Shown here: piece after piece, positions 46,639 to 61,382 of the stretch
Layout: the number at the start of each line of letters is the position of its first letter
How positions within the stretch are numbered: the stretch's first letter is position 1
Source of the DNA: Pseudomonadota bacterium
Lineage (GTDB): Bacteria; Desulfobacterota; Binatia; Binatales; Binataceae
Direction of reading: 5' to 3'
DNA: 64,000 bases
Assembly (NCBI GenBank): GCA_021324885.1
Contig: JAJPIF010000025.1
Coordinates: 172,713-236,712, forward strand
The notes under the pieces: generated by a model
What the model saw: only the letters and a program-made list of their open reading frames with translations
Told to the model about the DNA's origin: nothing
The model's database searches: none
Made by a program: the position numbers and the translations under genes

Positions 46639-48714
46639 ATGATAACCGCGATTGTCTTCACACTTTGCCTTGTGGCTGCCCTGGGCGTTTTTCTCTACCA
46701 GCTCTGGCTCCGCTTTCGCCTGCTGTTGAGCGCCGCTCCCGCGGCCCGTTTCGATCGCATTCCCGAACGAGTTCGCGCCGTGCTTGTCTACGCCTTTGGC
46801 CAGAAGAAATTCGTCCGTCCAAATCCGGGAGCCGAGCGGTACGCGGGGTGGATGCACTTTTTCATCTTTTGGGGCTTTGTCATCCTGTTCATCCAAATCC
46901 TAACTTTGTTCGGCCGCGCCTACTCCCCCTCCTTCGTCGTTCCCGGCTTCAGCCTGAATCTGCTGGGAGGCCCCTATTTTTTGCTCCGCGACATCATGGA
47001 GGTAACCGTCCTGTTCTGGATCGGGGTGGCATTCGTGCGATGGCTGGTCGTGCACGCTCCCCGGCTTTACGGCTATCTTCCGCCCGAGCAGCGCCTGCGC
47101 GGTCAATCCCACTGGGAAGCTTATGTGATCCTGGGTTTCATCGCGACGATCATGCTGGGAGGGCTCGTGTATGATGGCGGACGAATCGCTTCGCACCCCA
47201 ACAACATGCAGATCGTTGCGGAGGCGCGATGGCAGCCGATCTCAGCCCTGGTGGGCGCCAGCCTGGCGAAGGCTCTGGGCACGAGCTTCGCCCTGCACGC
47301 GAGCGAAGTAGCCTGGTGGGTGCACAATCTCGTGGTTCTTTTCTTTTTGAACCTACTGCCGCGCTCCAAACACTTCCACATCATCACCTCGATTCCGAAC
47401 GTCTTTTTCTTGAAACTCGAGCCCAAGGGGCAGCTCTCGAAGCAGGATCTCGAAAATGCGACTCACTTCGGCACCTCGCACATCGATCAGTTCACGTGGA
47501 AGCAAGTGCTCGACATGTACAGCTGCACGGAATGTGGCCGCTGCTCCTCCAATTGCCCCGCCACGGCAACCAAAAAGCCTCTGGCTCCACGGCAGTTGCT
47601 GCTCGATCTGCGGGACTACCTCTACCAGCATCAGAACGAGATGATTGAAAAGAGGAGCCACACCGGCGGAGATGGCGCGGAAGCGGCCGAGGTCGGAGAA
47701 AACATTGTCGGTCCCGTCATCCACGACGAGACCCTGTGGGCTTGCGTCACCTGCCGGGCCTGTGAGGAGGCCTGCCCGGTGTTGATCGAGTACGTCGACA
47801 AAATCGTCGACATGCGCCGTCACCTGGTGCAGGAGGAGGCCCGTTTCCCCAAGGAGCTTACCCGCACTTTTAAGAACATGGAGACCCAATCCAATCCGTG
47901 GGGAATCGATTCAGCACAGCGGTTTGAGTGGGCCGAAGGCCTGAACGTTCCGACCCTGGCCGACAAGCCCAACGCCGAGTTTCTGTACTACGTCGGCTGC
48001 GCGGGGTCCTTCGATGATCGGAACAAAAGGACGACGCAGGCCTTCGTCCGTGTGCTGCAGAAAGCAGGCGTGGACTTTGCCTGCCTGGGGCGCGAGGAAC
48101 TTTGCAACGGCGAAACCGCTCGTCGGCTCGGAAACGAGTACCTCTACCAGTCGATGGCCCAAATGCTGATCGAAACCCTGAACCAAAACCAGGTTCGCAA
48201 AATCATCGTAAACTGCCCCCATTGCTTCAACACGATCAAGAACGAGTTTCCGCAATTTGGCGGCTCATACGAGGTCATTCATGCCGCCGACCTCGTCCGG
48301 CAATTGATCGCTTCGGGGCGTCTGAAGATCTCCGCGGAATTCGCCAGGCGCACCGTATATCACGACTCTTGCTATTACGGCCGTTACAACGACGTTTTTG
48401 ACGAACCACGGGATGTGCTCAGCCGCGCGGGGGCCCAGGTTCACGAGATGGAACGCCACCATAAATTCGGCATGTGCTGCGGTGCCGGCGGAGGGCGGAT
48501 GTGGATAGAGGAGGACCCCGACAAACGGGTGAATCTGCTCCGCACCGAGCAGGCGCTTCAGACCAATCCTGAGGTGATCGCCGTCTCCTGCCCTTTCTGT
48601 ATGACGATGCTCTCCGACGGCATCAAGGCTAAGGACCTGGAGGAGAAGGTCAACACCCTCGATGTGATGGAGATCGTCGACCAAGTCACCCGCGGCCGCG
48701 ATGCAGAGTCCTGA
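46639..48714 (+). CDS. Membrane Fe-S oxidoreductase, probable ETF:(mena)quinone oxidoreductase
   Basis: 691 residues. Five or six helices in the first ~265 residues (haem-b-binding NarI-like; FFIFWGFVILF, LHASEVAWWVHN) are followed by two 4Fe-4S motifs: C296-x2-C299-x2-C302-x3-C306 and C369-x2-C372-x2-C375-x3-C379. Two CCG-type HdrD domains follow (LYYVGCAGSFDD … NCPHCFNT and YHDSCYYG … MCCGAGGGRMW with C613-C614). Proteins of this architecture beside etfBA pass electrons from acyl-CoA dehydrogenases, via ETF, to quinone in the membrane. Here etfA and etfB lie convergently 160 bp downstream, which supports the role. GGAAAG precedes the ATG. Confidence 0.9.
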   Translation: MITAIVFTLCLVAALGVFLYQLWLRFRLLLSAAPAARFDRIPERVRAVLVYAFGQKKFVRPNPGAERYAGWMHFFIFWGFVILFIQILTLFGRAYSPSFVVPGFSLNLLGGPYFLLRDIMEVTVLFWIGVAFVRWLVVHAPRLYGYLPPEQRLRGQSHWEAYVILGFIATIMLGGLVYDGGRIASHPNNMQIVAEARWQPISALVGASLAKALGTSFALHASEVAWWVHNLVVLFFLNLLPRSKHFHIITSIPNVFFLKLEPKGQLSKQDLENATHFGTSHIDQFTWKQVLDMYSCTECGRCSSNCPATATKKPLAPRQLLLDLRDYLYQHQNEMIEKRSHTGGDGAEAAEVGENIVGPVIHDETLWACVTCRACEEACPVLIEYVDKIVDMRRHLVQEEARFPKELTRTFKNMETQSNPWGIDSAQRFEWAEGLNVPTLADKPNAEFLYYVGCAGSFDDRNKRTTQAFVRVLQKAGVDFACLGREELCNGETARRLGNEYLYQSMAQMLIETLNQNQVRKIIVNCPHCFNTIKNEFPQFGGSYEVIHAADLVRQLIASGRLKISAEFARRTVYHDSCYYGRYNDVFDEPRDVLSRAGAQVHEMERHHKFGMCCGAGGGRMWIEEDPDKRVNLLRTEQALQTNPEVIAVSCPFCMTMLSDGIKAKDLEEKVNTLDVMEIVDQVTRGRDAES

Positions 48715-58164: not shown

Positions 58165-59910
58165 TCAATGCGCGAGCAGCGTGTCCCATTTCGCGGGCAG
58201 CATTATCCGCTTGGCGGTAGGATAGCCGATGAAGCCGTTGTGCGAGAAGGCGTAGCCGTTGTCGCGCGATGGATCGCCGCACACCGCGACCATGAAATCG
58301 TCGGGCTTGACCACGATCGGCACCATCCGATTGGGATCGGACGATTCGCAGAACAGCTTCGGGATCTCGCCCAAACGCACCCGCTCCTCCAGGGTCCGCA
58401 GCGGATGGTCGGCGCCGTGCAGGTACTGGAACAGTTGCTTGTCGAATTCATGCGCGGGCAGGCGGGCATGATCGAACAGATACTGCCGCACATCCTTTTT
58501 GGACCATCCCGAGCGGGCGATCGTCCCCGCAATCAAGGGCGATAGCGCGACCAGCGGGCGCAGCGTGCCGACCACCATCCCGCACGTGAACGTCAGATGC
58601 CATCCGAGATTGGCGCGCAGGACTGCGTCGGCGACATACGGCATGATCCGCTCCGCCGAGGTGCCCGACGCGTTCGCGATTGTATCGCCGCCGGTATAGC
58701 GCGCGAGCGTGACCACGTTGTCGCCGGCGGCAAAGCCCATATCGGCGCACAGCGGCTCCCATCCGATCTCCGCCAGCACGTCTTCGTTCTCGGCCATCAC
58801 CACGCGCCAGGTCCCGCCGAAGGTCCCCTTGTCGGTCTTGTGGGGCAGGAACCCCGCGACATTGCGCAGGTACAGCCGCAGGAAACGCCCGATGCTGGTG
58901 TTGGCGCGGAAGCCGTCGCGCAACGCGCCCTGCTTATAGTTGAACCCGAGCTGTTTGATGATCGGGCCGTTGACGATAATCAACGTCTCCGGACCGGGCG
59001 TGTTGCCGGTGTGTTCCAGTCCGTAGCCGGGATCGGCCAGGGCCTCGACGATCGCAATCAGCACCGGCATGTATTCGGGACGGCATCCCGCCATCACGCC
59101 GTTGACCGCCACGGTCCAGATGGTGGCCTCGCGCCGATCGCACAGCAGCACGCCCAGCAGCTCCCCGGGCTTGCGATCGGTAAAGCGCAGGAACTGTTCG
59201 ACTTTGTCAATCGTGGGCGGCACGATCGGCAGGCCGTCGCTCCATTCGCGATCGTAGAAGTAATCGTTGACCTCCTCGAAACTGCCGGTGAAGACGATCT
59301 CCGAGGGATGCGGTTCGGCCTGCTGGTCCTCCGTCTCTTCAGGTTGCTCGCTCAGTCCGCTTACGACCTGGCCGGCGGTCACTTCGAGAAGGTTGTTCTT
59401 GAGTTCCTCGTAGGTCTGCATGTTGACGTGGCCGGGCAAGATCGCGACCGGCAGGTGCGTAAAGCCCAGTCCTTCGGCGGTGCTGGACGCCTGCCCTGCG
59501 AACCCCTCGCAGACCAGCGATACGCTGGGGATTCCCGCGCGTTCGGCCGCTGCTGCCGCCCGCATCACGGCGGGCGTACAGCTCCCTCAACATCCCATCC
59601 CGGAAATGACCGCGTCGACGCCGAGTTCGCGCAGGCGCTGGGGCAGCGCCTGGAGCACGTCGCGCTCCTCAGTACTGTGCGTGCTGCCGAAGCGGTCGGG
59701 GCCGATGAATTTGATGCCTTTGAAACGCGCGGACAGCTCGGCTTCGATCACCGGAAAGATTTCTTCGCCACGGAATACGTAGTCCCACAGTTCGGCGACG
59801 GTCTTGCCGTTCAGCGTGTCCAGGCGGCGGGCCGGCGCGGCTTTATCAATCACTTTTTTGCCGCGCGGCCATACCACTTCGAATATTCCTGCAGACTTCC
59901 TGCGCGCCAT
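58165..59910 (-). CDS. UGSC-family selenoprotein (in-frame TGA = selenocysteine)
   Basis: 581 residues read through a TGA at 59589-59587 (codon 108). The first 107 codons end …VDAVISGMGC; after the TGA the frame resumes GSCTPAVMRAAAAAERAG, giving the Cys-Sec-Gly-Ser-Cys motif that names the UGSC family. Residues 1-170 form this predicted redox domain; residues about 195-581 (YDREWSDGLPIVPPT; NTPGPETLIIVNGP; GWSKKDVRQYLFDHAR) form a large conserved domain of unknown function that I recall as usually encoded with UGSC. A bacterial-type SECIS hairpin follows the TGA. AAGGA lies 8 bases before the ATG. It is the last gene of an operon, 4 bp after the DsbA-family gene. Substrate unknown; a selenium-based thiol/disulphide reaction is plausible. 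Confidence 0.9.
59552..59589 (-). promoter_or_regulatory. Bacterial SECIS element at the selenocysteine TGA
   Basis: After the TGA come 11 bases, then stem GCCCGC (59575-59570), loop CGTGAT (59569-59564) and stem GCGGGC (59563-59558); GCTG (59582-59579) and CAGC (59555-59552) extend the helix below. The apical loop begins 17 bases after the TGA and has G at its second position, fitting the known bacterial SECIS rules for SelB recruitment. Confidence 0.85.
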
Positions 59911-59914
59911 CGAA

Positions 59915-60577
59915 TCATCCTTTCTCAGAGCCGCTCTGCTGCCGCGGCAGCATGCCCTGTCTTTGCATCACGGTCTGGAACACCTCGTAGTAATGCCATC
60001 CTTTGATCGCAATCCGTCCAAGAATGTAAGTCGGTGTGCTGACGACGCCCGCCTTCCTGGCCGCGGCGACGGCGTTCATGGTGCGCTCCATGTAGCGGCG
60101 TTCGCGCAACGCCCGTCCCATCTCCTCCGCATCAAGCCCAGCCTTCTGTGCCGCTTCCTGCAAGGTCGCAATCCGCGCGATGTCCTTGCCTTCCACCCAT
60201 AGCGCGTCGTACACGGCCGAAGTAAACGGCAGCGCATCGCCCCGATCCTGGGCGAATTCGACTGCCTGGAAGGCAAAGAAACTGCATTGCATCTTATCGG
60301 GGAAGCGCATGCGTGCGGCCTTCTCCGGCGCCATTTCCTTGAGCCATTGCGCGGTCGCGCGCGCACGCTCGCGATCGACGTTTTGGTGAAACGGCGCGCC
60401 TTCGGGCGGGGTCTCCGGATGGAGCCAGTGGGGACGCCACACCGGACGCACATCGTAGTCGCGCGCCAGTTGCTCCATCCGCTCCTGCCCGATGTAGCAG
60501 TAGGGACAGATGAAATCGGCGAACATCACCACCCGGAAAGGATTTTTGGATTGTTCGGCGCCCGATTCGTTCGCCAT
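59915..60577 (-). CDS. DsbA-family oxidoreductase (FrnE-like)
   Basis: 220 residues from the ATG at 60577 with AAGGAGA 6 bases upstream. Thioredoxin fold with an inserted helical domain: ADFICPYCYIG carries C24-P-Y-C27, and VVSTPTYILG holds the cis-proline near the C-terminus. No signal peptide, so cytoplasmic, like FrnE and 2-hydroxychromene-2-carboxylate-isomerase-like members. Its stop is 4 bp before the UGSC selenoprotein start, strongly suggesting a shared redox function, for example as reductant or partner of the selenoprotein. Confidence 0.88.
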   Translation of the reverse strand: MANESGAEQSKNPFRVVMFADFICPYCYIGQERMEQLARDYDVRPVWRPHWLHPETPPEGAPFHQNVDRERARATAQWLKEMAPEKAARMRFPDKMQCSFFAFQAVEFAQDRGDALPFTSAVYDALWVEGKDIARIATLQEAAQKAGLDAEEMGRALRERRYMERTMNAVAAARKAGVVSTPTYILGRIAIKGWHYYEVFQTVMQRQGMLPRQQSGSEKG

Positions 60578-60596: not shown

Positions 60597-61382
60597 TCAG
60601 ATGGCCCGCTCGATCGCCTCGGCGGCGGCCCGCGATAATTCATCGTCGCCAATTCCGCCTTGCACCGCATCGGCGTCGAAGGACAGCAGAATTAGCGTCG
60701 CGCCTTTTTCTCCGCTTCGGATCGGCGTCGGTTGTTCGTCGCCGACGACGTATCTCAGTCCCGGCACGGCGACGGATTTGCCGTCAAACGACGCGCCGCC
60801 ATTGACCACCACTTCATAACGGCCGAAGTTCGCCGCGGGAACCGCAATGGTACAGTTCGGCGGGGCATCGAGGATTACCGCCTGAGGGCCGCTGCCCGGC
60901 GGGATCAGGAACTTGCAGCGCATCCCCGCCATTCCGAGCACCTCGAACCATTCGCTTTCCCGGTCCATCCCGACCAACTGCCGTCCGACCAGATTGATCT
61001 GCCTGCGCGCAGCCCGATCCGCCATCGAAACCAGCCCGCCCTGTCTGGGATGGAGCACCAGCATGTCGTGGCCCTCGCCGGTGGAGAACGGTCCGTATGG
61101 CAGTTTGTGATCGGCATAATGGATCGCCAGCGGCCGCAGCTTCATCGTCGATTTGGGGAAGTCCATCGCGCCGCCGATCAGGAGCTGGAACTGCGAGGTC
61201 AGATGCATGTGCGCGTAAACCCGGGGGCACGGATCGAAGCGGAAGCGGATTGCTTCAGGACCGCCGTCGGCGCCGCTCAGATACACCTGGCACTGGAAAG
61301 TGATTCCCTCGGTCTGGCCCGCCTTCCACGGGACCTCGGTTGGATCGACAATGTACTGCCTGAGCAAGCTTTTCCCGTCCAT
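60597..61382 (-). CDS. Cupin-like protein of unknown function, first gene of the selenoprotein operon
   Basis: 261 residues from ATG 61382 (MDGKSLLRQYIVDPTEVPW); ATG 61421 would add 13 residues. The sequence is beta-rich: ITFQCQVYLSGADG, a PCPRVYAHMHLTSQFQLLIGG segment with paired histidines typical of cupin metal sites, GEGHDMLVLHPRQGG, and a second half with VVVNGGASFDGKSV and ATLILLSFDADA. This suggests a bicupin-like fold; no enzyme family is recognised. It ends 19 bp before the DsbA-family gene, so the three genes form an operon. Confidence 0.7.
   Translation of the reverse strand: MDGKSLLRQYIVDPTEVPWKAGQTEGITFQCQVYLSGADGGPEAIRFRFDPCPRVYAHMHLTSQFQLLIGGAMDFPKSTMKLRPLAIHYADHKLPYGPFSTGEGHDMLVLHPRQGGLVSMADRAARRQINLVGRQLVGMDRESEWFEVLGMAGMRCKFLIPPGSGPQAVILDAPPNCTIAVPAANFGRYEVVVNGGASFDGKSVAVPGLRYVVGDEQPTPIRSGEKGATLILLSFDADAVQGGIGDDELSRAAAEAIERAI

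Follow-up and report, generated by a model that had tools for sequence, protein, structure and literature searches.

A predicted UGSC selenoprotein fused to a recurrent partner domain and its resemblance to the selenocysteine region of GrdB

Sequence comparisons confirm positions 58165 to 59910 of the window, the 64,000-nucleotide stretch of contig JAJPIF010000025.1 analyzed here, as a single predicted selenoprotein gene whose in-frame TGA is read as selenocysteine (Sec) 108 (Table 1). Decoding of this UGA would involve tRNA-Sec and SelB together with the downstream hairpin, a reading that is strongly supported. Relatives of the UGSC protein suggest a redox enzyme akin to the selenium-bearing component of glycine reductase. 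The best explanation, to which we assign a probability of roughly 0.6, is a GrdB-like Sec-dependent reductase made of the UGSC domain and its partner, with the substrate between them and a thiol or flavoprotein as donor. The original prediction had proposed a selenoprotein, which our results support, and neither of the findings it had named as contrary turned up; it missed the second family in the C-terminal two thirds of the protein and the relation to GrdB.

Table 1. Positions of the fused gene, its parts, and its upstream neighbors in the window
Feature	Position	Strand	Remarks
Fused UGSC-partner selenoprotein gene	58165..59910	-	581 residues; terminal stop TGA 58165-58167
TGA codon, predicted selenocysteine 108	59587..59589	-	Read-through frame, homologue codons, fixed SECIS codons
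UGSC domain (PF24696)	59353..59880	-	Residues 11-186; predicted alternating alpha/beta
Partner domain	58168..59298	-	Residues 205-581; near-invariant MAGC motif (Cys276)
Putative bacterial SECIS	59558..59575	-	Arms 59575-59570 and 59563-59558; loop 59569-59564, CGUGAU
DsbA-family thiol oxidoreductase, CPYC site	59915..60577	-	4 nt before the fused gene
Cupin-like protein	60597..61382	-	Pfam match below the cut-off (20.2 versus 27 bits); opens the probable operon

A single reading frame across the TGA

Two open reading frames on the reverse strand are in phase across one TGA, as had been claimed: an upstream frame of 107 aa (59587-59910; ATG start, TGA end) and a downstream frame of 467 aa (58165-59568; GTG start). 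Translation through the TGA at 59587-59589 yields 581 residues with U108 within GMGCUGSCTP, which bears out the assignment of Cys-TGA-Gly-Ser-Cys to the UGSC motif. The Pfam UGSC model PF24696 spans the TGA (residues 11 to 186) with 103.7 bits against a curated cut-off of 25 bits; the separate halves score 30.7 and 37.9 bits. The NCBIfam equivalog model NF041046 (UGSC_fam) gives the fused protein 49.5 bits, below its cut-off of 125. The window has 13 gene-terminal TGAs after which 40 or more codons stay open. Past this one the coding score is a full 0.32 per codon, versus -0.30 to 0.18 at the other 12, and this read-through score shows what the hairpin described below does not show alone. A simple gene caller cuts the gene into 59587-59877 and 58165-59565, the kind of split that had been foreseen.

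Elsewhere in the window, a forward-strand gene at 46639-48714 ends in a TGA beyond which 172 codons are open, with a mild coding score of 0.18 per codon. This read-through is probably spurious, because it overlaps an ETF gene on the opposite strand.

A putative SECIS element under selection

The hairpin downstream of the TGA has a 6-bp stem, extended to 7 bp in the window's copy by an extra pair (59576/59557), and its CGUGAU loop starts 17 nt after the TGA with G at loop position 2. It agrees with the bacterial SECIS model as set out in the relevant passages of PMC13188914. The original prediction had described stem, loop, spacing, and G position correctly but had given the hairpin too much weight: a filter requiring a stem of at least 6 bp, a loop of 3 to 8 nt, G at loop position 1 or 2, and a spacing of 16 to 37 is passed by 127 of the 1,777 TGAs in the window (7%). 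Among 29 gene-terminal TGAs, 6 pass, including two that belong to this gene, as do 35% of 20,000 variants in which these codons were recoded synonymously. The fold z-score of the hairpin is -2.0. Because the chance pass rate of the filter is high, the hairpin alone shows little, and as a single sequence it is weak evidence.

The comparative evidence for a SECIS is strong and, compared with the hairpin alone, decisive. Over 83 TGA sequences (from 85 fused sequences, the other two with TGC), the modal codon at SECIS codons 112, 113, 114, 115, and 117 accounts for fractions of 0.84, 0.95, 0.94, 0.93, and 1.00, respectively. In 84 other conserved columns, the same fraction averages 0.57 and peaks at 0.88; four of the five beat every other conserved column, and the fifth ranks just under the top two. 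Codons 109, 110, 118, and 119 are unfixed (0.38 to 0.61); their third bases belong to neither the stem core nor the loop. The five inner stem pairs form in all 83 sequences and the outer pair in 77 (70 G-C, 7 A-U), with 6 lacking it. In a 34-sequence subset, 98% of cells are paired, and neither this value nor that for double changes was matched in any of 500 shuffles; the seven double changes from G-C to A-U all fall at one of the six pairs and, the sequences being related, may represent few events. In the seven A-U rows, the A-U form accompanies an Ala-to-Val change in the protein. The two fused copies with TGC use other codons at the SECIS positions. With these five codons near-fixed and the double changes, the proposed check on the SECIS came out in its favor: the element downstream of the Sec codon is under selection.

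Homologues keep Sec or, rarely, Cys

At the position of codon 108, TGA is present in 86 of the 88 mapped fused copies and TGC, encoding Cys, in the other 2 (L173 and L186); the 88 are those mapped of 89 fused sequences, counting the window's own copy and one duplicate, and L166 is partial. The comparison with homologues that had been proposed thus returned Sec or Cys codons and no unrelated one. The search did not favor TGA, because one of its two peptide patterns, that over the motif, spells Cys. A few fused relatives have UGAC or UGGC in place of UGSC. The copy in the isolate Xanthobacter aminoxidans (L137) is one of those with TGA. Sec is not strictly needed, because the two fused Cys copies sit in genomes that keep SelA. 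The fused homologues taken from named genomes number 79, the best out of 557, and by their record titles these come from Proteobacteria, Chloroflexi, Actinomycetota, Acidobacteria, Nitrospinota, Rokuibacteriota, and Candidatus Binatia. The gene also occurs in metagenome-assembled genome (MAG) records titled Bordetella parapertussis (L119, L121, L130, L134, L140, L150, L157, and L181), which we guess to be mislabelled environmental MAGs.

PF24696 matches in 105 of 148 genomes of the class. The window's own genome has two UGSC genes; besides the fused one, contig C24 carries a split copy with Sec at residue 96. Among the matches listed, G084 and G110 alone have no TGA inside the PF24696 match; their split copies (L056 and L057) have TGC at the Sec position. 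By eye, a partial hairpin still follows the TGC in both, as if Sec had been lost recently. With the UGSC family (PF24696; NF041046), as characterized in passages of PMC2398784 and PMC13188914, the window's protein shares the UGSC motif with Sec and the domain match across the TGA. It differs in having Cys before Sec, where many split copies have Asp, and in being fused to a partner domain and scoring below the NF041046 cut-off.

The selenocysteine machinery is present in the genome

All four genes whose presence had been suggested as a check, selA, selB, selC, and selD, were found in the window's own genome (96% complete), with profile matches of 519 bits for SelA, 374.5 for SelB, and 376.4 for SelD and a tRNA-Sec with anticodon UCA. 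The SelD gene in this genome (L003, contig C21) has an in-frame TGA (AGUAG) and is a predicted selenoprotein too. SelA is present in all 16 genomes tested among the 79 named fused loci, the two genomes with TGC copies included, and exceeds the cut-off in 14 of 20 chosen genomes of the class.

PF24696 has no match in G027, G032, and G011, which lack SelA, and G084 and G110, also without SelA, each carry a Cys copy of UGSC. SelB-like matches in G084 and G110 reach 205 and 215 bits, below the cut-off of 242, and the tRNA-Sec model gives a marginal 47 to 50 bits (cut-off, 47) in G027, G084, and G110, so that SelA is the only component clearly missing from these three genomes. In G041, rated 100% complete (loci L009, L044, L071, and L072), none of SelA, SelB, and tRNA-Sec exceeds its cut-off. 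This genome has 12 UGSC matches, and all five among the matches listed hold TGA, an exception that counts against the Sec reading; missing contigs would be the likeliest reason for its lack of sel genes.

UGSC genes have a regular partner

No Pfam or NCBIfam family matched residues 205 to 581. This part of the protein aligns at 32 to 36% identity with stand-alone proteins some 350 residues long. In loci L014 to L064, 50 of 51 UGSC hits have a same-strand partner gene no more than 600 nt away, the remaining hit being at a contig edge; the 51 include L018 twice, L014/L052 and L032/L056 fetched twice, and the fused L033. The UGSC gene comes first in 26 of the pairs and the partner in 24. Of the 30 loci fetched by UGSC alone (L035 to L064, best matches only), 29 are paired and 1 is the edge case. 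One locus fetched via the partner gene (L022) has no UGSC in its 1.5-kb flanks. Since the partner gene regularly adjoins UGSC, the linkage supports a reading in which the two act as one enzyme, and we infer a complex between them.

A structure model of the partner is of fair to good quality (pLDDT 82.5, pTM 0.87). Class I fumarate hydratase came up as a candidate fold (E = 5.9e-4), but superposed with an rmsd of 16 Å, and we claim no fold. A second structural look gave Z scores of at most 7.4 and no confident solved fold. Comparison of the partner with GrdB profiles returned nothing.

The Sec loop of UGSC resembles the end of GrdB

Comparison of UGSC and GrdB profiles gave a probability of 94.4 and an E value of 9.1e-8 over 99 columns, with Sec aligned on Sec; the GrdB profile was built from nine GrdB proteins of class genomes, and the E value is that of one pairwise comparison. 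With seven of the nine, leaving out L085 (itself UGSC) and L092, the probability was 85.1 and the E value 6.2e-6. A control comparison of partner and UGSC profiles gave 0.1, that is, nothing, and UGSC against a second PF07355 group (motif UPVC, one member in the window's own genome) gave only 3.5. The GrdB model TIGR01917 weakly matches 15 of 40 aligned proteins (E up to 1, best 3.4e-4), with 13.8 bits versus a cut-off of 602, and PF07355 matches none of 40 members at E up to 1. The profile comparison therefore supports homology between the Sec loop within residues 11 to 186 and the Sec region of GrdB; since the match is partial and a PF07355 match is absent, the UGSC protein is related to this region and yet is no GrdB.

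What UGSC shares with GrdB (PF07355; selenoprotein B of glycine, betaine, and sarcosine reductases) is the last ~100 residues of the latter, with the Sec loop; UGSC residues 1 to 81 lie outside the match. Nothing in the UGSC protein corresponds to the first ~340 residues of GrdB, and the partner domain of UGSC is different. The GrdB protein L085 carries the exact UGSC motif. Across L080 to L092, the GrdB genes have UGTST, UGTCS, or UGSC at the Sec site, and they look truncated too, because their PF07355 matches stop at Sec.

The model of the fused protein (pLDDT 88.2, pTM 0.89) alternates strands and helices over residues 37 to 187 and places Sec108 after the strand at 100-106 and before the helix at 111-124. 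In a second structural look, the 50 rows comprised PurE, regulator/binding-protein, and dehydrogenase-like folds and one designed protein, with Z scores of 8.8 to 11.1; PurE superposes on the UGSC model at about 3 Å over 124 residues. Foldseek matches of the whole model to FtsZ were set aside as noise (rmsd of about 19 Å). No thioredoxin or GrdB structure is among the matches listed by Foldseek or the second look, which excludes neither. Solved structures were also searched by sequence, using the window's UGSC stretch and profiles of the fused protein, UGSC, GrdB, and the partner, and nothing significant came back. The thioredoxin fold has the order beta-alpha-beta-alpha-beta-beta-alpha. The predicted model has no beta hairpin after the active-site helix and departs from that order, and its alternating alpha/beta arrangement would speak against a thioredoxin-like fold.

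Gene neighborhoods

The DsbA-like and fused genes are probably cotranscribed, being 4 nt apart. The order cupin-like, DsbA-like, fused gene recurs in the same-genus genomes G001 and G002; outside the genus, neither neighbor occurs among the loci examined, save for a 31% DsbA-like match in L111. Of 78 fused loci, 22 have a thioredoxin reductase (TrxR)-like gene nearby (raw count), and all 22 of these genes have CxxC and two dinucleotide motifs, features shared with thioredoxin reductase (TIGR01292), but the three members tested score 213 to 236 bits, below the cut-off of 343. No TrxR-like gene is called between 52 and 64 kb in the window, around its fused gene, and 56 of the 78 loci have none in the flank examined, some flanks being short. 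TrxB also belongs to clostridial glycine reductase operons.

Of the 66 loci with room for one, 13 continue with a second partner copy, and 9 of these also have a TrxR-like gene (raw counts). SelB is encoded in six fused loci, SelA in four of these, and tRNA-Sec in three of these (L148, L159, and L182). In L182 and L148, a TrxR-like gene stands beside fused UGSC, selB, selA, and tRNA-Sec, and L184 has the fused gene, selB, and selA, without tRNA-Sec, in the stretch examined. Among the gene clusters neighboring the fused loci are TctC (25 of 79), CoA transferase (13), Rieske oxygenase (8), and MmgE/PrpD (6), as raw counts with one representative annotated per cluster. Amidohydrolases lie near both UGSC copies of the window's own genome.

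Proposed function and alternatives

The Sec site, SECIS, UxxC motif, gene pairing, and GrdB kinship are read from sequence, and the mechanism that we propose extends from them. The substrate would be held between UGSC and the partner, which may bind it, and Sec108 would attack it by reductive cleavage or by thiol/selenol exchange. A selenenylsulfide could then form between Sec108 and Cys111 of the UxxC motif, with Cys111 as the resolving residue. Reduction of the selenenylsulfide would fall to a thiol donor: the TrxR-like flavoprotein where one is linked, and perhaps the DsbA-type protein at the window.

Plain ORF calling yields two separate genes, with a genuine stop at the TGA and a 467-aa product from an internal GTG. 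We give this almost no credence, since the UGSC Pfam domain crosses the TGA, all but two of the 88 mapped copies keep the TGA and those two have Cys, and synonymous codon choice across the hairpin hardly varies. Improbable too, if less so, is a thioredoxin-fold redox protein joined to an unknown domain and working as a general disulfide reductase, along the lines suggested in a passage of PMC2398784 in 2008. Its UxxC motif and the DsbA-type and TrxR-like genes close by would fit, but the model alternates strand and helix without a beta hairpin after the active-site helix, the structural matches are of the PurE, regulator/binding-protein, and dehydrogenase-like kinds plus one designed protein, and the sequence kinship goes to GrdB.

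An antioxidant or detoxification enzyme is unlikely but has more in its favor. Here UGSC and the partner would use thiol and selenol chemistry to reduce peroxides, electrophiles, or metalloids, with TrxR- or DsbA-like donors and without a GrdB-type cleavage. Many selenoproteins do such work, which we count for this alternative, as we do the TrxR-like link and the DsbA-like gene within the same probable operon. The homology to GrdB argues against it, and so do the TctC, CoA transferase, Rieske oxygenase, MmgE/PrpD, and amidohydrolase neighbors, which fit catabolism better than stress (raw counts); up to 12 UGSC matches per genome suggest varied substrates. The GrdB-like reductase remains our preferred reading. 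A wider proposal, whose odds we put slightly short of even, is that UGSC proteins are a minimal GrdB-type branch, not thioredoxin-like, and with an obligate partner form a large class of Sec-dependent reductases, either two-part or fused, for many substrates, having a dedicated TrxR-like donor and sometimes carried with selA, selB, and tRNA-Sec.

The UGSC family and a UGSC fusion have been in print since 2008 (PMC2398784). The passages of that paper on the fusion describe UGSC joined to Unknown_1, propose a thioredoxin-like fold, and place Unknown_1 in few aquatic organisms. The window's protein shares with it the fusion of UGSC to a conserved domain of unknown function, and its partner may or may not be Unknown_1; in contrast to those few organisms, the fused protein was matched in 82 of the 116 related genomes searched, many rows via the partner part only. 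A marine survey, in the part concerned, gives UGSC 8.2% of selenoprotein genes, among the commonest families (PMC9402790). The literature passages on UGSC selenoproteins within our scope, which most subscription papers and all preprints fall outside, state no function, GrdB relation, regular partner gene, or TrxR-like link. This analysis adds the alternating alpha/beta prediction, the GrdB resemblance, the regular partner, and the linkage to TrxR-like and sel genes, together with a functional hypothesis that becomes testable once UGSC is linked to GrdB, one regular partner, and a TrxR-like donor.

A link between UGSC and PF07355-type genes was considered and dropped: outside the loci fetched for the PF07355 family, such a gene is near the fused gene only in L126 and L156. 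In the window's own genome, a PF07355-type selenoprotein gene with an in-frame TGA (VPVUPVCHQS; L065:5052-5969, contig C24) is divergent from the split partner-UGSC pair. Plain ORF calling cuts in two the window's gene and similar genes at loci examined here, and this PF07355-type gene is split likewise.
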